Shown here one piece after another: positions 1,198-18,762 of a stretch of 22,548 bases of DNA (within the stretch, counting starts at the first letter, position 1; every line of letters begins with the position of its first letter). Source of the stretch: a virus. The notes under the pieces are model-generated. The model was not told the DNA's origin, made no database searches, and was given only the letters and a program-made list of their open reading frames with translations. Made by a program: the position numbers and the translations under genes. Location: positions 1-22,548 of IMG/VR virus record IMGVR_UViG_3300006921_000175. One strand, given 5' to 3'.

Positions 1198-1464
1198 ATG
1201 GATTTAATAAATGTAGTAGAGTTAGTAAATCAATATGGTGTACCCATAGTTGTCGCTGTGGGTATGGGTTATTTTATTTTTTATATTTGGAAGTTTGTTA
1301 CAAATAACATTCTTCCAAGTTTAGATAAAGCATTTGGTACTTTGGTACATTTGATTGACCGAGTAAGAATGTTGGACAACGACATGATTCGACTCGACCA
1401 AAAAATACACACCATCATAGAAATACAAGAATCAAGAAAACAGGTAGAAAAAGATGATGCTTAG
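1198..1464 (+). CDS. Single-pass membrane protein with cytoplasmic coiled coil, paralog 2 (88 aa)
   Basis: It starts five bases after paralog 1 stops. Residues about 14-33 (GVPIVVAVGMGYFIFYIW) form a transmembrane helix. They are followed by an amphipathic helix with the motif LIDRVRMLDNDMIRLDQKI, nearly the same pattern as paralog 1, and a charged C-terminus. Small phage proteins with this layout are frequent in marine T4-like phages and are usually left unnamed. Its last 11 bases overlap the start of csgF, so it is probably co-translated with the curli secretion genes and may act with them at the inner membrane. A holin-like role is an alternative; the sequence does not decide. Confidence 0.65.
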   Translation: MDLINVVELVNQYGVPIVVAVGMGYFIFYIWKFVTNNILPSLDKAFGTLVHLIDRVRMLDNDMIRLDQKIHTIIEIQESRKQVEKDDA

Positions 1465-1897
1465 AGCTTCACTTTTTCTTCTCTGTCTATTGTCTGTAAA
1501 CTCACATGCAGTTCAAATGACACATACGTTTAAATCACCGTCTTTTAATGGAAATGGGTATAGTGCACATGTGTTGACAATAGAAAATCAAGAGTTTTCC
1601 AGAAGTGAAGCACTTAGGGAAAAGAAAGAATCTGCTGAACGTCAAGCAATACGAGACGCGGCAAACACGAACCTTTCGAAATTTATGAAAAACGTAGAGT
1701 CTAGAATATACGCCCAACTGTCTAAGCAGTTGGTGGACAGTATGTTTGGAGAAGATGCTTCAACATCAGGCACCGTTACTTTTGAGGGAACAACAATCAG
1801 TTATACCAAAAGCAGCGATACCGTAGATTTAACAATTGTGGATACAAATGGTAGTTCGACTAATATCACTGTTCCTGTTGGCGACTTTACTTTCTAG
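1454..1897 (+). CDS. csgF: Curli assembly factor CsgF-like, exported
   Basis: It has a cleavable signal peptide (hydrophobic SLFLLCLLSV, then SHA before the mature part). The mature N-terminus QMTHTFKSPSFNGNGY matches the conserved start of enterobacterial CsgF (TMTFQFRNPNFGGNP), the segment that plugs into the CsgG pore. The C-terminal half carries the typical pattern: a helix with SKQLVDSMFGED, then strands with SYTKSSDTVDLTIVDT and a final TNITVPVGDF. At 147 residues it is close to the usual ~138. CsgF sits at the surface side of the CsgG channel and couples secretion to fibre nucleation. The neighbouring csgG confirms the call. ATGs occur at 1454 and 1457. The last 50 bases also encode the CsgG signal peptide in another frame. 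Confidence 0.86.
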   Translation: MMLRASLFLLCLLSVNSHAVQMTHTFKSPSFNGNGYSAHVLTIENQEFSRSEALREKKESAERQAIRDAANTNLSKFMKNVESRIYAQLSKQLVDSMFGEDASTSGTVTFEGTTISYTKSSDTVDLTIVDTNGSSTNITVPVGDFTF

Positions 1898-2636
1898 TTG
1901 CGCGAGCATCCAATCACAGGATGCTCCTGCATCAAGCACTGTGCCGTTAGTGAATGAACTATACAATATGACACCGCCTGTTCGTAAGGTGCCAATCGCA
2001 GTGTATAAGTTTAATGATGTAACAGGACAAAGAAAATCGAGTTCATCACTTGCACTGTTGAGTAGTGCGGTGACACAGGGTGGAGATATATGGTTAATCC
2101 AAGCCCTAAAGAAAGCAGGTAAGGGTGAGTGGTTTCAAGTTATAGAAAGAATGGAACTGGAAAATCTATTAAAAGAAAGACAGATTATACGAAACACAAG
2201 AAAGAACTATGATGGAGATAAGGCAGAAAAGATTAAACCTCTATTGTTCGCAGGAGTATTGCTGACAGGAGGTATAGTTGGATATGACACCAATACAAGT
2301 ACAGGTGGTATGGGTGTAAGATATTTGGGTATTGGTATGTCTGATGAATATCGTAAGGACATGGTAACAGTGGCTTTACGATTAATATCTGTACAGACAG
2401 GTGAAGTTTTATTGGCAGTTAGTTCTCAGAAAACTATTCTGAGTACAAAGTTATCTGCAACAGTTTTTAAGTTTTTGGATATGGGAACTAAATTGCTGGA
2501 GACAGAATCAGGGATAACGGACAATGAGTCCACAACCTATGCAGTAAGGAAGGCAATCGAACAATCGGTTATTGAAATAATCAAGGAAGGCGAGAAAAAA
2601 GAATTATGGGAATTTAAAAAGGAGGAAGAAAAATGA
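1848..2636 (+). CDS. csgG: Curli secretion channel CsgG-like outer-membrane lipoprotein
   Basis: The frame is open from a TTG at 1836, but the ATG at 1848 gives a clean lipoprotein signal ending in lipobox LSSC (Cys18). The residues after Cys are Ala-Ser, not Asp, which fits outer-membrane sorting. CsgG landmarks follow in order: VPIAVYKFNDVTGQ, an ALK---WFQVIER stretch, LENLLKERQIIR, TGGIVGYDTNTSTGGMGVRYLGIG, VALRLISVQTGEVL, KTILS, and a C-terminal ELWEF. This is the nonameric pore that exports curli subunits. The constriction-loop region between GQRK and SSAV lacks the Tyr and Asn-Phe found in E. coli CsgG. It overlaps csgF by 50 bases and curlin 1 by 4 (ATGA). No csgE is seen in the window. 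Confidence 0.93.
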   Translation: MVVRLISLFLLATLLSSCASIQSQDAPASSTVPLVNELYNMTPPVRKVPIAVYKFNDVTGQRKSSSSLALLSSAVTQGGDIWLIQALKKAGKGEWFQVIERMELENLLKERQIIRNTRKNYDGDKAEKIKPLLFAGVLLTGGIVGYDTNTSTGGMGVRYLGIGMSDEYRKDMVTVALRLISVQTGEVLLAVSSQKTILSTKLSATVFKFLDMGTKLLETESGITDNESTTYAVRKAIEQSVIEIIKEGEKKELWEFKKEEEK

Positions 2637-3316
2637 GAACGGGCATACTTACGATACTCGCTTACTTCGTTATGTGCAGTGTGAGTTATGCGAGTGACGT
2701 TTACATAACACAGTCTGGTGCGAGCCTGACTGCAAACATCAATCAAGATGGACAGACTAATAAGTTTGGTGATGGTACAACGGGCGTTACTTTAACAGGT
2801 GACAATCAGACATTGGACATTGACCAGATTGGTAACACTAACACTATCGCCGCATCTGTTGTAGGTGCAACACAGACGTTTACTCTCAAACAAGAAGGTA
2901 ACAGTAATACTTCTAATGTGTCTGTAGGAGCTCAAGGTGCTTCTGCTGATAACAGTATCATTCAAACACTCACTGGTAATTCAAATACCACTAACGTGAA
3001 CGTAGCAAAGACTGCATCGGGCGCTGATGCTGATGTTGATATCGTTGCTACAGGTGACAGCAATACTATTACCGTGAATGAGAATAGCACTGCAAGTATG
3101 ATTGGCGATGATAAGAAGATAACGAATATCACAGCTATTGGGTCGAGTAATACTATTACGTCAACTCATACCGGCGCTGCTGACCAAGACACTACTTTAC
3201 ACCATACAGGTGCTTCTAGTACATTTTCGATTACTCAAGGTGGTGCTCATGATGGCACAACTTCTATAACAACGGTTGGATCAGGACACAGTGTTACGGT
3301 TACTATGGACGATTAG
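2633..3316 (+). CDS. Curlin-repeat protein 1 (CsgA/CsgB-like), exported
   Basis: An N-terminal signal peptide (ILAYFVMCSVSYA, cleavage after YA-S) precedes a low-complexity, Asn/Thr/Ser/Gly-rich mature chain with no cysteine. The chain shows irregular curlin repeats with the pattern I-x-Q-x-G-x-x-N-x-x-x-x. Examples are VYITQSG, INQDGQTN, IDQIGNTNTI, LKQEGNSNTS, TGDSNTITV, IGSSNTITS and SITQGG. Curlins stack such strands into a beta-solenoid amyloid. The direct position after csgG, with a 4-base overlap, supports its being the exported substrate. Whether it is the major subunit (CsgA role) or nucleator (CsgB role) cannot be told. Later repeats lose Gln in favour of Thr/His, so the amyloid core may be weaker than in E. 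coli curli. Confidence 0.85.
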   Translation: MRTGILTILAYFVMCSVSYASDVYITQSGASLTANINQDGQTNKFGDGTTGVTLTGDNQTLDIDQIGNTNTIAASVVGATQTFTLKQEGNSNTSNVSVGAQGASADNSIIQTLTGNSNTTNVNVAKTASGADADVDIVATGDSNTITVNENSTASMIGDDKKITNITAIGSSNTITSTHTGAADQDTTLHHTGASSTFSITQGGAHDGTTSITTVGSGHSVTVTMDD

Positions 3317-4355
3317 TCTCATTCTCTTTAGCATCGGTGCTTATGGTGCTATTGGGAATGTGGTGAAACACAAAGGAAATGCTTCTGTAGAACGGTCAGG
3401 TGAGAAATCCGTTCTACAGAAGGGTTCTGATATCGAGTTCAAGGACACGGTGAAAACTGGTAAAGGCGATGTTGGTATCAAGTTCGTAGATGACACCAAC
3501 GTAGCAGTGAGTGCCCACAGTGCCTTGGTTATCGATGAGTTTATCTATGATCCCAACTCTAGAAAGGGGTCGAAGTTGGTTATGAATATTGCACTTGGCA
3601 CAGTGCGTTATGCGAGTGGTAATATTGCGAAGCTGAGCAATCAGAATGTAGACATTCGGACACCGACAGCAAGGATTGGTGTGTTGGGAACTGCATTCAG
3701 TATGACGGTGGATGAGGTTGGTAAGTCTTTAATTATTCTGTTACCCAATGCTGATGGGACAGTGGGTAAGATATCTGTGGATACTGATGTAGGACAGGTT
3801 ATAATGAACCAAGCATTTCAGTCAACAGTGGTTGGTACAGCAGAGGCAAAACCATCCAAGCCAGTGATACTTGATTTAACACTGGATCAGATTAACAACT
3901 TATTGATTATCAGACCACCAAAAAAGAAGATTATAGCGTTGCTTAGTGATTCAAAGAAAAGTAAGAATTTGCTGGATATTGATTTTCTTGAGTTTACAGG
4001 GTTGGATAAGAACGAGTTAGAAGAAGACCTGTTTGAGTTTAACGAGTTGGACATTAACGATTTGGATGTGGAGTTACTTGGTAACATCCTTGACCAGATT
4101 GCTCTTGCCCTAGCACAGGCAGAGTTGATAGATGGCCGAACCAGCGGGTTTAACAGGGCAACACAGGTTAATACGATAGTGGACGGCAACACAACACGCA
4201 TAATACGGAGAGTGGGCAACAGTACGATAGACCTAGATTTAATTAACGATTACGGATATACAATAAATTTAACACAGGGCGGAATACCTGTGCCAGAGAT
4301 AACAACGAGAGATGAGGACGCTTCTAACACTATTACTATCTATCAGTCTGAGTAG
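3291..4355 (+). CDS. FecR-domain periplasmic protein with curlin-like C-terminus
   Basis: The frame opens at a TTG at 3276, but the GTG at 3291 gives a proper signal peptide (LRLLWTISLILFSIGAYG-A). Residues about 20-180 are a FecR-type beta domain: VVKHKGNASVERSG, LQKGSDIEFKDTVKTG, GIKFVDDTNVAVSAHS, then GTVRYASGN and DIRTPTARIGVLGTAFS. The last motif is characteristic of the family. A middle acidic, Leu/Asp-rich segment (about 215-275) follows. The final ~40 residues read like curlin strands (GNSTIDL, YTINLTQGG, SNTITIYQS). FecR domains sense or carry signals in the periplasm. Stand-alone versions often neighbour CHASE2 cyclases, one of which lies 750 bases downstream. It overlaps curlin 1 by 26 bases and curlin 2 by 44. 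A structural anchor for the fibre is an alternative role. Confidence 0.85.
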   Translation: MLRLLWTISLILFSIGAYGAIGNVVKHKGNASVERSGEKSVLQKGSDIEFKDTVKTGKGDVGIKFVDDTNVAVSAHSALVIDEFIYDPNSRKGSKLVMNIALGTVRYASGNIAKLSNQNVDIRTPTARIGVLGTAFSMTVDEVGKSLIILLPNADGTVGKISVDTDVGQVIMNQAFQSTVVGTAEAKPSKPVILDLTLDQINNLLIIRPPKKKIIALLSDSKKSKNLLDIDFLEFTGLDKNELEEDLFEFNELDINDLDVELLGNILDQIALALAQAELIDGRTSGFNRATQVNTIVDGNTTRIIRRVGNSTIDLDLINDYGYTINLTQGGIPVPEITTRDEDASNTITIYQSE

Positions 4356-5106
4356 CACAGCACTTGCTGGAAACAGCGTGTATCTTGAGCAGATTGGTAC
4401 GAGTACAGATACTACTGTCAGCATAGACATTGACGGTAATAACAATTCTATCAATTTGTCGATGGAGGGCACTGGTAATGAACTAAATTTCAAACAAGAG
4501 GGAAACAATAATACCATCAGTTGGGTTTCCTATTGGGGTTCTGGTAAAATATGGGGCGGTGACTTGGATGGTAATAACAACACACTTAAAATTGAACAGT
4601 ACAACACCACAGGCTCAGACTCTAATAGAGTAGGTTTTCATATGCCTGGAAACAGTAATACTATTCATGTTTGTCAGGGAGCAATATTTTCTAGCAGCAC
4701 AGACACAACATGTTCAGGCTCACAGTCTCAAGAATATGGTGGACACACCATAAATCTGGATGTGCATGCAAATGGTAACAACATAAAAATAGGACAAGAG
4801 ACAGGCACAGGTAACGCTGACCACTACGCACAGATATACTATTACAACGGTGATAATAACAGCACTTTTATTACTCAAAAGGGAAATGGTGATAAAGATT
4901 TGAGAATGGACATAAGGACTGATGGTGGGGAACAAGAGATTATGCAAAAAGGAGATGGTGCACATACAGGAGTAGTTAATCTTCAAGGTAGTTATCACAC
5001 AGATATTACACTCATACAACGAGGCAACACAGCACAGTCTTATTCGTTAACACAAAATTGTCAAACAAGTGGCGGGTGCGCTGTTTCGGTGACACAAGGA
5101 AACTGA
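4312..5106 (+). CDS. Curlin-repeat protein 2 (CsgA/CsgB-like), exported, Cys-containing
   Basis: The start codon lies inside the fecR-like gene. The signal peptide is encoded in that overlap (LLTLLLSISLSSTALA, with an AxA-like site before GN). The mature chain has repeated curlin strands such as VYLEQIG, GNNNSINLS, LNFKQEGNNNTIS, GNNNTLKIEQ, GNSNTIHVCQ, NNIKIGQ, NNSTFITQKGNG, ITLIQRGN and VSVTQGN. By hand count it holds about 30 Asn and 29 Thr in 264 residues. Unlike curlin 1 and classical curlins it has four Cys in two close pairs, which could form disulfides in the periplasm. It is probably the second fibre component (nucleator or tip). It ends one base before the cyclase gene. Confidence 0.84.
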   Translation: MRTLLTLLLSISLSSTALAGNSVYLEQIGTSTDTTVSIDIDGNNNSINLSMEGTGNELNFKQEGNNNTISWVSYWGSGKIWGGDLDGNNNTLKIEQYNTTGSDSNRVGFHMPGNSNTIHVCQGAIFSSSTDTTCSGSQSQEYGGHTINLDVHANGNNIKIGQETGTGNADHYAQIYYYNGDNNSTFITQKGNGDKDLRMDIRTDGGEQEIMQKGDGAHTGVVNLQGSYHTDITLIQRGNTAQSYSLTQNCQTSGGCAVSVTQGN

Positions 5107-5107
5107 C

Positions 5108-7162
5108 ATGAAGAAATGGATTATATCATTTGCAGTAATTCTGATTCTGTGTGGAATTCGTTTTGCAGATCCGTGGTTTCTTGATGTGGTAAGACTCAAG
5201 GCATTAGACCAACACCAAAGAAACCAGACAGAACAGAGCTTGGATAATCTTGTTACAATAGAAATCAATAACGAAACTCTAAATAAAAAAGGTCAATGGC
5301 CCTGGAATAGAGAAACGTTATCCAAAGAAATAATACGGTTGTATGAGGCTGGCGCGGGTATGGTTGTGCTTCCTATACTCTTTGCACAACCTGATAGATT
5401 TGGTGGAGATGATTCACTTGCAGATGTTCTCAGTCAAACCCCAACCATTATAGGACAAATACCTACCACACAGAAAGATAACAGTGGTGTCATACGAGGC
5501 GTTGCAACAGTGGGTGAGCCATGGAATGGTTGGGTATATCAGTATCCAGGCGCAATCGGACCTATACCTTTACTAGCAGAAAAATCACATGCTGTTGGTA
5601 TGATGATTATTGCACCAGAGAAGGACGGCGTGGTTCGTCGTATGCCCTTGGTAGTTGCAGTGGGTGACCAACTATACCCAGCAATGAGCACGGAAATATT
5701 ACGGATGGTTGCCGGTGATATATCTTATCAAATGAAAACAGGTGTGGCAGGTGTTGAGAAATTACGCATACCTAAGTTTAAGATGATTGATACGGATGCA
5801 CATGGCAATATATGGTTGGACTTCAAATGGAAAACTCCAGTTCATGCATTGCATGAAGAGCTACCGGACCTTAGTGGCAAGATAGTAATTGTGTCAATAA
5901 CAGCATCTGGCCTTGACAGTGCAGTATCTACGCCTGTTGGTGTAATCTATTCACATGACCTTATTGGTGCTTCTGTTGCGACAATGATGACAGGCAGAAA
6001 TATCACTAGACCATATTGGACTAACCTTGCCGAGTTGGGTTCATCGTTTGGTCTTGCACTTTTATTGATGATTGTTGTGTTATTGCTACCTTGGTATTTT
6101 GGTGCAACACTCATGCCCGCAGCTGCTGTGGGTTTATTTTATGGAAGTTCACACCTTTTCACCAAACACGATTATTTGGTGGATTGGAGTTACCCTGTAA
6201 TTACAGTATTCTTTGCTTGGTCAATTGCAGCATTTTTGAGATTTATGGAAGAACACAAAAAGAGAATGGAAATCAAAAAACAATTTGAACATTATCTTGC
6301 ACCGGCAATGGTTAAGAAGTTACAGAGGAATCCAGACTTATTAAAATTAGGAGGTGAGACGAGAGAATTAACATTATTGTTTTGTGACATACGAGGATTT
6401 ACACCTATCAGTGAACAATTCAAAACTGATCCACAAGGATTAACAAAGCTCATTAATAGGTTTTTGACTCCTATGACAGATATCATCATGACTAATGATG
6501 GTACAATAGATAAATATATGGGTGACTGCATAATGGCATTTTGGAATGCTCCATTAGACGTTAAAGAACAACGTAGATTGGCAATTAAGTCCTCTCATGA
6601 GATGTTGAAACATCTTGAGGGATTAAACGTGGAGCTGAAGAAAGAGGAATCTCTTCCTATAAACATTGGTATTGGATTAAATACGGGAGATGTAGTCGTG
6701 GGCAACATGGGCAGTAATCAAAGATTTGATTATAGTTGTTTGGGAGATGCAGTTAATCTTGCAGCCAGACTTGAGGGGCAGAGTAAAGAGTATGGTATGA
6801 AAATAATTCTTGGCGAAGAAACCGCCAAGGAAATGGAGAGTGAATTTGTAGTATTAGAATTAGATAAAATCGCAGTGAAGGGTAAAACAGAAGGTGTCAC
6901 TATCTACACATCTTTAGGAACTCATAAAAATCTTTTCAATACGATGAACTATGATATGGCGCAAAGACAACATGGGAAGTTTTTGTTTTTCTATCGTAAA
7001 CAAGCTTGGCAGTTGGCATCAAAATGGCTTGATGATTTAGAGTTTGAGTTCAACGGCATGATGAAAGATTATTATGCCATGATGAGAGATAGAATAGAAC
7101 AATTACAGAAAGAAGACCTTCCTGAAGATTGGGATGGCGTGTATAGGGCGACAACAAAATGA
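5108..7162 (+). CDS. CHASE2-domain class III adenylate/guanylate cyclase
   Basis: This 684-residue inner-membrane sensor cyclase begins with a TM helix (about 4-20). A periplasmic CHASE2 domain (about 25-300) follows, with LVTIEINNETLNKKGQWPWNRE near its start. Three TM helices occupy about 312-385. The cytoplasmic class III catalytic domain (about 415-600) shows FCDIRGFT (metal Asp427), DKYMGDCIMAFW (Lys469, metal Asp473) and YSCLGDAVNLAARLE (Asn550, Arg554). All residues needed for catalysis are therefore present. The second base-specifying position is Ser543, where Thr or Asp is usual in adenylate cyclases. The likely product is cAMP, with cGMP not excluded. It lies directly after the FecR and curlin genes, suggesting that it reports envelope or fibre status to the cytoplasm. 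A cyclase of this type is very unusual in a phage. Confidence 0.93.
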   Translation: MKKWIISFAVILILCGIRFADPWFLDVVRLKALDQHQRNQTEQSLDNLVTIEINNETLNKKGQWPWNRETLSKEIIRLYEAGAGMVVLPILFAQPDRFGGDDSLADVLSQTPTIIGQIPTTQKDNSGVIRGVATVGEPWNGWVYQYPGAIGPIPLLAEKSHAVGMMIIAPEKDGVVRRMPLVVAVGDQLYPAMSTEILRMVAGDISYQMKTGVAGVEKLRIPKFKMIDTDAHGNIWLDFKWKTPVHALHEELPDLSGKIVIVSITASGLDSAVSTPVGVIYSHDLIGASVATMMTGRNITRPYWTNLAELGSSFGLALLLMIVVLLLPWYFGATLMPAAAVGLFYGSSHLFTKHDYLVDWSYPVITVFFAWSIAAFLRFMEEHKKRMEIKKQFEHYLAPAMVKKLQRNPDLLKLGGETRELTLLFCDIRGFTPISEQFKTDPQGLTKLINRFLTPMTDIIMTNDGTIDKYMGDCIMAFWNAPLDVKEQRRLAIKSSHEMLKHLEGLNVELKKEESLPINIGIGLNTGDVVVGNMGSNQRFDYSCLGDAVNLAARLEGQSKEYGMKIILGEETAKEMESEFVVLELDKIAVKGKTEGVTIYTSLGTHKNLFNTMNYDMAQRQHGKFLFFYRKQAWQLASKWLDDLEFEFNGMMKDYYAMMRDRIEQLQKEDLPEDWDGVYRATTK

Positions 7163-16360: not shown

Positions 16361-17077
16361 ATGGCTGAATTTGATCATGTAGATATGTCGTGGTATCCTA
16401 CGGCAGATTTGAAAACAAAAAACATCAATGGTAGAAGATTCTATGTAACACCAAAGGGATACTATCCATCGATTACGACTGTGCTCTCGGACCGTAACAA
16501 GAAAGGACTGTTTGAGTGGCGTAAGAGAGTGGGTGAGGATGTTGCAAATCATATTGCAAGAAAGGCAGCTTCAAGAGGCACCAAGGTTCATCATATGTGT
16601 GAGGACTATCTGAACAACAAGGATATCTCACATCATAAAAAAGATTTTCTACCTTGGTGTCTCTTCAATGAAATGAAGGATAAACTGCTTTGTAATATAA
16701 ATAATATACATGCACAGGAATGTGGTTTGTATAGTGATAAGTACAGAGTTGCTGGTAGAACAGATTGTATTGCAGAATACAATGGTGAACTATCAATCAT
16801 AGATTTTAAAACTTCCACTAGTGAGCGCACAGATTCATGGAATGAAAATTATTACATTCAAGGTGCTGCATACGCTGAGATGTTTGGTGAGAGAGCGGGA
16901 ATACTCGTTGATCAAGTAGTGATACTTGTAGTTACTGAAGATGGGACAACACAAGAATTCATAAAGAAAAAACACGATTATCTTCCAATGCTTACTGAAT
17001 CTATACATAGATGGGAAGAGAAAAATGAAATACCTAATTTTAACATTGACAATGATATTGGGGTTGCTACTACCTAA
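16361..17077 (+). CDS. RecB/Cas4-like PD-(D/E)xK exonuclease
   Basis: A core of GRTDC (Asp135) followed by LSIIDFKTS (Asp148, Lys150) and YYIQGAAYAEMFGE forms motifs II, III and the QxxxY motif of the RecB-type nuclease domain. An N-terminal YPSITTVLSDRNKKGLFEWRKRVG and SRGTKVHHMCEDYL match the helical start, with His in motif I. The same exonuclease is found in many T4-like marine phages and is probably used in recombination or degradation of host DNA. No Cys cluster for an iron-sulfur centre is present, unlike Cas4 or AddB. The last 53 bases also encode the signal peptide of the next protein in another frame. Confidence 0.85.
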   Translation: MAEFDHVDMSWYPTADLKTKNINGRRFYVTPKGYYPSITTVLSDRNKKGLFEWRKRVGEDVANHIARKAASRGTKVHHMCEDYLNNKDISHHKKDFLPWCLFNEMKDKLLCNINNIHAQECGLYSDKYRVAGRTDCIAEYNGELSIIDFKTSTSERTDSWNENYYIQGAAYAEMFGERAGILVDQVVILVVTEDGTTQEFIKKKHDYLPMLTESIHRWEEKNEIPNFNIDNDIGVATT

Positions 17078-17441
17078 TTGGGCAAATGCTCAGAGTAATA
17101 CCATACCTTGGCCGACAAGCAAATCATCTGTCGCGGAATGGACAGTTGGCGAGATGATTCAAGTCGTCTTTATTTGTAGAGATGAAGTCACAGTGAGAGA
17201 ACTCGCTGAAGCTGATATGAAATCTTTACAAAACATTGCTGTGTTATCACAACAGAAATTAGCGATGGGAGATTGTATAACACTTCCTAGACAAGTGCCA
17301 TTTAAGATTAATGACCTCATTTTTCAGTACAAAGATCATAAAGGGATAGATACTGTTCTATTGAAGGTCCGTTTGCTTTTTGGATCTCGTGTATTTGAGG
17401 GATATACGATTGCTCCAGGTGTATTTAAGCAATCTATTTGA
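17025..17441 (+). CDS. Exported (periplasmic) protein of unknown function (138 aa)
   Basis: A clear signal peptide (KYLILTLTMILGLLLPNWANA, cleaved before QSN) is encoded inside the 3' end of the exonuclease gene. The mature 115-residue protein has two Cys (FICRDEV, MGDCITL), probably bridged in the periplasm. It also has beta-strand-like segments near the end (LIFQYKDHKGIDTVLLKVRLLF, FEGYTIAPG). I do not recognise the family. It is the last gene before the tmRNA promoter. Secretion makes an envelope role such as exclusion or wall modification plausible, but nothing shows which. Confidence 0.68.
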   Translation: MKYLILTLTMILGLLLPNWANAQSNTIPWPTSKSSVAEWTVGEMIQVVFICRDEVTVRELAEADMKSLQNIAVLSQQKLAMGDCITLPRQVPFKINDLIFQYKDHKGIDTVLLKVRLLFGSRVFEGYTIAPGVFKQSI

Positions 17442-17449
17442 AAAAACTA

Positions 17450-17478
17450 TTGACAACAGAACAAGGATTTAGTATACT
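17450..17478 (+). promoter_or_regulatory. Strong sigma70-type promoter for tmRNA (TTGACA-N17-TATACT)
   Basis: TTGACA at 17450-17455 and TATACT at 17473-17478 have 17-base spacing, with ACTA in front of the -35. It is placed so that transcription would begin near 17485, at the start of the acceptor piece of the permuted tmRNA. Of the intergenic promoters in the window, it is the nearest to consensus. Confidence 0.88.
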
Positions 17479-17533
17479 TTATCTATGGTTGTAAGAAATG
17501 ACCTGGAGGCATTGCGGACGGGAGTTCGATTCT

Positions 17534-17582
17534 CCCCACCTCCACCAAAGATATTTCTCACGAGATATTTTTGGTGGGGGTG
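17534..17582 (+). other. tmRNA precursor processing hairpin joining the two pieces
   Basis: The acceptor-stem strands are extended by a second helix. ACCAAAGATATTTC, which begins at the tRNA-like CCA region, pairs with GAGATATTTTTGGT before the coding piece (two G-U pairs), with a small TCAC-type loop. Together they make one continuous ~21-bp hairpin from CACCTCC to GGGGGTG. The non-tmRNA part (about 17548-17575) is the spacer normally removed when a permuted tmRNA matures. The host's tRNA nucleases would be expected to cut it. Confidence 0.75.
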
Positions 17583-17721
17583 ACAAGGTTTCGACGTGGT
17601 GAGAGAAGGGAAATGGACAACTCGACAGGCGAATGTCGTAAAACTAGCAAAACCTTTAAACGCCAACGATGACGTTTACTTTGAGGACTTTGCGCTAGCT
17701 GCGTAAAACTTCACGGGGTAT

Positions 17722-17753
17722 GGGTTCCACCTTGTTATACAACGGACCCTTTT
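17722..17753 (+). terminator. Hairpin plus T-run at the end of the tmRNA coding piece
   Basis: GGGTTCC (17722-17728) can pair with GGACCC (17744-17749) with one bulge. The loop contains a further TTGT/ACAA stem, and TTTT follows. This could be the intrinsic terminator of the tmRNA transcript, the last pseudoknot of the mature RNA, or both. Some read-through into the HTH gene is likely, since no other promoter is seen before it. Confidence 0.5.
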
Positions 17754-17784
17754 AAATTTGTCATGACTAAGGAGAAAATTTATT

Positions 17785-18042
17785 ATGACTACTTTGACTC
17801 AGACACAACGTGTCATTAATGCACTTGAGAATGGTGCAGAACTTACTGCTAAACAAATTAGCGCCCGTTATGGTGTGAAAAATGTTCGTGCAGTTATCAG
17901 TCAACTTCGCACGGAAGGATACGCTATCTTTCTTAACAAGCGTGTATCGTCTTTTGATGGTGAAACGTATTCCAAGTATCGTCTTGGAACGCCGACTCGT
18001 GCAATTGTAGCCGCTGGTTACGCCGCATTGCGCGCTGCGTAA
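17785..18042 (+). CDS. Small helix-turn-helix protein (85 aa)
   Basis: An AAGGAGA ribosome-binding site lies 10 bases upstream of the ATG. Residues 5-55 form a winged-helix/HTH (TQRVINALENGAELTAKQIS, ARYGVKNVRAVISQLRTEG), followed by a basic wing (FLNKRVSSFDGETYSKYRLG) and a C-terminal TPTRAIVAAGYAALRAA. I recall very similar small proteins in T4-like cyanophages and pelagiphages, unnamed or called HTH proteins. The likely role is DNA binding as an internal transcription regulator. It is flanked by the tmRNA and a perfect terminator hairpin, so it forms a nearly self-contained unit with high expression potential. Confidence 0.78.
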   Translation: MTTLTQTQRVINALENGAELTAKQISARYGVKNVRAVISQLRTEGYAIFLNKRVSSFDGETYSKYRLGTPTRAIVAAGYAALRAA

Positions 18043-18087: not shown

Positions 18088-18100
18088 AAAGGACATAGTG

Positions 18101-18319
18101 ATGCCGTTAAACACTGCAAAAACTTTCTCTATGAACATAGAAAATATAGTTTTAGAGAAAAATATTACACATATGGATGCAGTTCTCTGGTATTGTGAAC
18201 AAGAAGGTATCGAACCAGATACTATTAACAGACTTATTTCTAAATCTCTCAAAGAGAAGATTGAGGCAAATGCAAGAGAATTAAATTTCCTACCAAAACA
18301 TGCTCAATTACCTGTCTAA
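18101..18319 (+). CDS. 33: Probable gp33-like late-transcription accessory protein (72 aa)
   Basis: AAAGGA lies seven bases before the ATG at 18101 (a GTG at 18098 is an alternative). The sequence FSMNIENIVLEKNITHMDAVLWYCEQEGIEPDTINRLISKSLKEKIEANARELNFL (read in pieces) matches, helix for helix, the C-terminal half of T4 gp33. That half reads FIIEKMVEEFGMSYLEATTAFLEENSIPE followed by KFIPSGIIEKIQ. gp33 links host RNA polymerase to the gp45 sliding clamp and so activates late promoters with gp55. The marine version is shorter, lacking the T4 N-terminus. The identification is by my own alignment from memory and is probable, not certain. It lies just past a terminator with no clear promoter of its own. 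Confidence 0.66.
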   Translation: MPLNTAKTFSMNIENIVLEKNITHMDAVLWYCEQEGIEPDTINRLISKSLKEKIEANARELNFLPKHAQLPV

Positions 18320-18607: not shown

Positions 18608-18683
18608 GCCGGTTTAGCTCAGTTGGTAGAGCAGTTGCTTTGTAAGCATCATGTCGGGAGTTCAAGTCTCTCAACCGGCACCA
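18608..18683 (+). tRNA. tRNA-Thr (anticodon UGU)
   Basis: The 76-base cloverleaf has acceptor GCCGGTT/AACCGGC, D arm with AGCTCAGTTGGTAGAGC, and anticodon loop TTTGTAA (TGT at 18641-18643). The T arm is GGGAG-TTCAAGT-CTCTC, and CCA is encoded (18681-18683). One T-T mismatch is present in the anticodon stem. It decodes ACA (and others by wobble), the most used Thr codon in curlin 2 by hand count. Confidence 0.94.
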
Positions 18684-18687
18684 ATAT

Positions 18688-18762
18688 TCCTCAGTAGCTC
18701 AGTGGTAGAGCAAGTGACTGTTAATCACTCGGTCGGTGGTTCGAGCCCATCCTGGGGAGCCA
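18688..18762 (+). tRNA. tRNA-Asn (anticodon GUU)
   Basis: It starts four bases after tRNA-Thr. The acceptor TCCTCAG/CTGGGGA has one T-G pair, the anticodon stem is perfect (AGTGA/TCACT), and the loop CTGTTAA carries GTT at 18720-18722. The T arm contains TTCGAGC, the discriminator is G, and CCA is encoded. It reads AAC and AAU. Confidence 0.94.

Follow-up and report, generated by a model that had tools for sequence, protein, structure and literature searches.

Permuted tmRNAs in related phages

tmRNA is an RNA that frees stuck ribosomes. Methylophilales phage Melnitz and pelagiphage Mosig were published with a permuted ssrA in 2022 (PMC9004378), so the tmRNA described here is not new in kind, and its novelty is lower than the earlier note had assumed. 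The whole stretch of DNA analysed here (the window) spans 22,548 bases, which make up an IMG/VR virus record from an environmental sample. Melnitz (EXVC044M; MZ577097) resembles the window in being T4-like and in carrying a permuted ssrA with an ALAA tag in the slot between a nuclease gene and gp33, behind a sigma-70 promoter with 17-nt spacing, and the two also have a related curli and adenylate cyclase region. In contrast to the window, the Melnitz tmRNA is of the alpha type (106.7 bits with the alpha model vs 25 bits with the beta model), has a 142-nt intervening sequence and is followed by a glutamine riboswitch; a search for a glutamine riboswitch near the window tmRNA gave no match. Mosig (MT647606, where the gene is annotated) and HTVC008M (KC465899) use the same slot, and their tmRNAs are likewise permuted and of the alanine type, but they are alpha type (67.6 and 83.8 bits, respectively) with the short tags GEDNFALAA and ANFNEYALAA. 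For HTVC008M, the permuted tmRNA with its ANFNEYALAA tag was located at 2121-2462 of locus L107, while GenBank record KC465899 has no tmRNA feature. A manA RNA motif (RF01745, 64.0 bits) was also seen in Mosig (L108, 2165-2372, minus strand).

Outside phages, the betaproteobacterial two-piece tmRNA (RF01850) shares coding-piece and pseudoknot motifs with the window tmRNA, which matches this family above its cut-off but is phage-borne and has a tag of 14 aa instead of about 10. The cut-off for the beta permuted form was exceeded in 16 of 399 Burkholderiales genomes, and the 149.5 bits of the window tmRNA lie well under the top scores of bacterial members, which reach 336 bits. The nearest sampled bacterial permuted tmRNAs are only about 70% identical to it.

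Taken with the results below, the two-piece tmRNA of the window is likely functional and owned by the phage. It is of the betaproteobacterial permuted type and lies in a tmRNA slot conserved in T4 phages like Melnitz and the pelagimyophages, where the beta type probably replaced the alpha type in the window clade. New compared with the published phages is the occurrence of beta-type tmRNA in the window clade (21 contigs) and of the alpha type in the other tested slot relatives, with the flanking genes shared.

Genes for gp33 and gp32 in the window mark the phage as T4-like, and no integrase was seen. It belongs to the phage group of Melnitz, Mosig and HTVC008M. The first match of both the gp32 and the adenylate cyclase proteins was Melnitz (OM43 host), and the adenylate cyclase also matched HTVC008M (SAR11 host). 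The gene order PhoH, nuclease, tmRNA, gp33 is common to the window, Melnitz and HTVC008M, and the order nuclease, tmRNA, gp33 is found in Mosig as well. Elsewhere in the window, curli-like genes and a FecR-like protein gene followed by an adenylate/guanylate cyclase gene (1454-7162) are arranged as in Melnitz and HTVC008M. Behind gp33, adjacent genes for tRNA-Thr(TGT) and tRNA-Asn(GTT) were observed (18608-18762), where L018 and L206, two sister contigs, carry tRNA-Thr together with tRNA-Gly.

Structure of the window tmRNA

The tmRNA and the genes on both sides of it are listed below.

16361..17077, plus strand: PD-(D/E)XK exonuclease, upstream landmark of the slot (PF12705, phrog_298)
17025..17441, plus strand: small protein encoded just before the tmRNA (no match in Pfam or PHROG)
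17450..17478, plus strand: sigma-70 type promoter TTGACA-17-TATACT (11/12 matches), ending about 7 nt short of where the tmRNA precursor is predicted to begin
~17486..17547, plus strand: acceptor piece, which supplies the 3' half of the tRNA-like domain (Rfam, ARAGORN and pair alignment; 5' end predicted)
17520-17536, plus strand: T arm, within the acceptor piece
17537-17543, plus strand: 3' strand of the acceptor stem, within the acceptor piece
17548..17575, plus strand: intervening sequence of 28 nt, which can form a hairpin extending the acceptor stem
17576..~17752, plus strand: coding piece with the 5' strand of the acceptor stem including G3 (17578), the D-loop region with GGUUUCGAC, the tag frame and the 3' pseudoknot (Rfam, ARAGORN; 3' end approximate)
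17662..17706, plus strand: tag reading frame ANDDVYFEDFALAA and stop codon TAA (ARAGORN)
17714..17749, plus strand: 3' hairpin (17722-17727 with 17744-17749) and pseudoknot (17714-17718 with 17730-17734)
17785..18042, plus strand: winged helix-turn-helix protein directly downstream of the tmRNA (PF14090)
18098..18319, plus strand: late-transcription coactivator gp33, downstream landmark of the slot (PF16805, 3.7e-20; phrog_254)

ARAGORN and two Rfam models agreed on a complete circularly permuted tmRNA at 17487-17763. The tmRNA_permuted model (RF04321) matched 17487-17706 over its full length (model positions 1-213) with 152.9 bits and an E-value of 7.6e-31 against a cut-off of 47, and the beta_tmRNA model (RF01850) matched 17425-17763, also in full, with 149.5 bits and an E-value of 2.2e-46 against a cut-off of 84. 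ARAGORN called a permuted tmRNA (tmRNA*) at 17455-17797 with the tag ANDDVYFEDFALAA. In the gene, the coding piece follows the acceptor piece after a 28-nt spacer, and the acceptor stem is formed by pairing of 17576-17582 (GGGGGUG) with 17537-17543 (CACCUCC). The G3-U70 pair of the alanine type is G17578-U17541, followed by the discriminator A17544 and an encoded CCA (17545-17547). These results bear out what the earlier note had read from the letters, namely a phage-encoded permuted tmRNA with this order of pieces, alanine identity and an ALAA tag; the Rfam matches span both pieces, and the pseudoknot is present. The pseudoknot region contains the CCUUGUUA motif, which is common to several betaproteobacterial permuted tmRNAs, and the tag is 14 aa long with an ALAA end. 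The fold of the precursor gave a z-score of -4.3, with the strand better than all 200 shuffles.

The window tmRNA lies between a PD-(D/E)XK nuclease and gp33 behind a TTGACA-17 promoter. The start of transcription expected about 7 nt past this promoter coincides with the predicted 5' end of the tmRNA, and the same -35 and -10 elements with 17-nt spacing precede nearly all slot tmRNAs, of the alpha as well as the beta type.

Conservation of the tmRNA and its slot

The pairing was followed in an alignment of 8 distinct relatives (336 pair cells), with slid pairing partners as the control. Standard pairs were found in 97.0% of the 336 cells, compared to 44-55% in the slid controls (at most 54.8%). 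Five pairs, distributed over the T arm, acceptor stem and 3' hairpin, had compensatory changes on both sides, compared to 0-1 pairs in the slid controls. Between the window and sister contig L018, all codon differences in the tag were synonymous.

The slot PhoH-nuclease-tmRNA-HTH-gp33-ThyX is syntenic across phages of both tmRNA types, L075 and L080 among them; L075 and the window are 70% identical in the nuclease, 79% in the HTH protein, 79% in gp33 and 69% in ThyX. Every intact slot tested held a tmRNA except that of a single-cell virus (AG-345-P14), the single empty slot seen, and the tmRNA is near-universal in the nuclease-gp33 slot, suggesting that these phages probably have a constant need for ribosome rescue. 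The idea that the slot is often empty was rejected, as Rfam detected an alpha tmRNA in 13 contigs where ARAGORN had called none. The published survey relied on ARAGORN (PMC9004378), and its counts are probably too low given the 13 slot tmRNAs missed by this program.

As ssrA is a common integration site (PMC9004378), the tmRNA might be a passive remnant of a prophage that had integrated into a host ssrA or been excised from it imprecisely. There is hardly any chance of this, since the tmRNA is complete in the sampled relatives, shows compensatory changes, has its own promoter and stays in synteny over many contigs. Insertion as an att remnant was accordingly ruled out by conservation.

Type of the tmRNA and the host

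Beta_tmRNA was the best of the clade models compared for the window tmRNA. With alpha_tmRNA (RF01849) it scored 77.4 bits, over the cut-off of 50 for that model yet 72 bits under the beta score, and its T loop is the canonical UUCGAUU, in place of the GCAGUAC or GCGGUAC of the alpha type. The alpha type was therefore ruled out for the window by model score (77.4 vs 149.5 bits). A type survey was performed on IMG/VR contigs retrieved through the nuclease. All contigs with an intact tmRNA and a nuclease at least about 76% identical to that of the window were beta type (122-149 bits), and the remaining contigs were alpha type, as were the outgroups Melnitz, HTVC008M and Mosig. The beta coding-piece pattern was found in 20 contigs besides the window, with the same gene neighbourhood where this could be checked, and the beta-specific motifs of the coding piece (CAACYCGNCAGGCGA..CGU and the CCUUGUUA pseudoknot) occur together.

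A separate observation concerns two alpha-type phage tmRNAs, L028 (3488-3842) and L032 (2155-2565), in which the coding piece and tag are nearly identical. L028 has a canonical UUCGAU T loop and a GGGGGUG/CACCUCC acceptor stem, whereas L032 has GCAGUAC and GGGGGCG/CGCCUCC; the sequences suggest that the tRNA-like domain seems to have changed as one unit.

The earlier note had held that the permuted form ties the host to lineages with two-piece tmRNA, with Alphaproteobacteria fitting best. The second part does not agree with the model scores, and the first is not supported either, in view of two results. Melnitz infects an OM43 strain yet has an alpha two-piece tmRNA, and all 12 Burkholderiales genomes found with 3-hexulose-6-phosphate synthase, a RuMP marker whose carriers were taken as Methylophilaceae-like, have a one-piece tmRNA (12/12). 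The permuted form and the type therefore do not identify the host of the phage, and caution is needed in reading a host or a host switch from phage tmRNA type or permuted form. A direct copy of an OM43-like host ssrA is unsupported for the same reason, the one-piece tmRNA of the 12 RuMP-positive genomes.

An exact search of bacterial species genomes with the window acceptor half and spacer gave no match, and a looser pattern was found in five Herbaspirillum genomes and nothing else. In 360 class-level genomes, the best DNA matches covered 36-44 nt of the 3' half of the tRNA-like domain, up to 37/37 identical, and those of the loci that ARAGORN could call were one-piece tmRNAs with tags such as ANDDNYAIAA. 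These matches were not read as pointing to a donor, because the stretch consists mostly of conserved letters.

Replacement in place or common descent

In the nuclease tree, beta-bearing phages are nested inside the group, with a poorly resolved base. In the best tmRNA tree, the window clade grouped with tmRNAs of Betaproteobacteria and of other phages, and the clade of alpha-type slot tmRNAs with Alphaproteobacteria; the branch between the two tmRNA types had a support of 100/100. The slot contigs sampled are fragments. Nearest to the window clade in this tree were other phage permuted tmRNAs (L086, 183-563; L093, 1311-1691), which have a predicted tag of 27 aa, AEDADTFEFGALSFTGNTVGGEVAVAA.

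The shared genes on both sides, the alpha-type outgroups and the position of the beta phages inside the nuclease tree indicate that a resident tmRNA of the alpha type was probably exchanged for a beta-type RNA in the window clade, with retention of the flanking genes, promoter layout and FED[FY]ALAA tag end. This tag end (TTTGAGGAYTWTGCRCTAGCTGCR, FED[FY]ALAA) is common to both slot groups and missing from sampled host tags. We infer a mosaic as the preferred reading, in which the beta scaffold would have been imported and the resident tag end kept or reacquired.

For this replacement part alone, the alternative is that the beta-like features evolved within the phage lineage from one ancestral slot tmRNA, without foreign import. 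The slot and promoter layout are the same and the tag end is similar, which could equally mean common descent with remodelling; in the AU test, a tree uniting beta- and alpha-type slot tmRNAs was not rejected (lnL difference 22.6, p 0.21), and the case of L028 shows that an alpha-type phage tmRNA can acquire a canonical T loop in its tRNA-like domain. We regard such remodelling as rather unlikely, as the beta coding-piece motifs are present together and the score gaps are large in both directions, the beta model leading by 72 bits in the window and the alpha model by 82 bits in Melnitz. With alpha and beta tmRNAs in a single genomic setting, these phages form a natural pair for tests of SmpB and AlaRS compatibility and of tag choice.

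Predicted role of the tmRNA

The window tmRNA is plausibly active in ribosome rescue, and judging from its sequence features the most likely role would be extra rescue capacity working with host SmpB. Host RNA polymerase would transcribe the tmRNA early from the sigma-70 promoter. Going by established tmRNA biology, tRNA-processing enzymes of the host would then excise the 28-nt spacer, host AlaRS would charge the tmRNA through G3-U70, and host SmpB would bring it to ribosomes that stall on mRNA that is broken or lacks a stop codon. Addition of the 14-aa tag ending in ALAA would expose the product to degradation by ClpXP or other host proteases, and the freed ribosome could go back to phage translation. 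In L005 and L013, an unrelated 76-nt hairpin replaces the spacer while both mature pieces match the window, which is consistent with the spacer being cut out. A search for SmpB in three complete relatives and seven contigs found none; its lack in the three complete relatives fits the use of host SmpB.

The tmRNA could instead serve mainly proteolysis, the tag marking host or aberrant proteins so that amino acids are recycled. Such a role was put forward for Melnitz (PMC9004378), and the tag end is phage-specific, with a length of 14 aa that exceeds the sampled Burkholderiales tags (mostly 10 aa). However, tagging and rescue are one reaction, tmRNA targets stalled ribosomes and not chosen host proteins, and the tag terminates in an ordinary ALAA, so proteolysis as the main purpose is improbable. 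More doubtful still is a decoy sequestering host SmpB or AlaRS. It is suggested by mycobacteriophage DS6A, whose tag-less tmRNA form inhibits endogenous tmRNA in E. coli (PMC11915505), and the complete tRNA-like domain and the phages without an SmpB of their own would suit it, but a decoy needs neither an intact tag frame, with its synonymous changes, nor a conserved coding piece with pseudoknot.

Small genes in the tmRNA spacer of relatives

In alpha-type relatives, the tmRNA spacer holds a conserved gene for a protein of 38-44 aa with one hydrophobic segment, e.g. MKTPLVREVSKWMFKAYIVWSICADITLLAGLIYLVFF. This nested small membrane-protein gene was located at L040 2182-2295, L047 6978-7091, L061 1782-1892 and many other loci. 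The spacer measures 159-186 nt in the alpha-type contigs with the nested gene, compared to 5-47 nt in sampled bacteria, and the TGA stop of the gene overlaps the first bases of the coding piece. With a pN/pS of 0.02-0.45 over 36 pairs, the nested gene appears to be under purifying selection. An IMG/VR scan gave 284 relatives of it; among the best 80 of these, 78 end exactly at a canonical start of a tmRNA coding piece, and 71 also have an acceptor end upstream. The phage record collection contained no match to the nested protein, and none in PHROGs or Pfam was convincing. The window's own 28-nt spacer does not contain such a gene.

There is about an even chance that the nuclease-gp33 slot, behind its fixed early promoter, acts as a cassette site exchanging tmRNAs of different bacterial origin while the phage tag end is kept, and that the spacer of sister phages doubles as a small membrane-protein gene, the transcript giving two tmRNA pieces and possibly a protein.

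A different small protein, matching DUF6356 (E 4.8e-8), was observed in the tmRNA spacer of L058 (2694-2822), L059, L063, L064, L070, L071 and L074, and its occurrence at the same position suggests that the spacer is a site for small genes.
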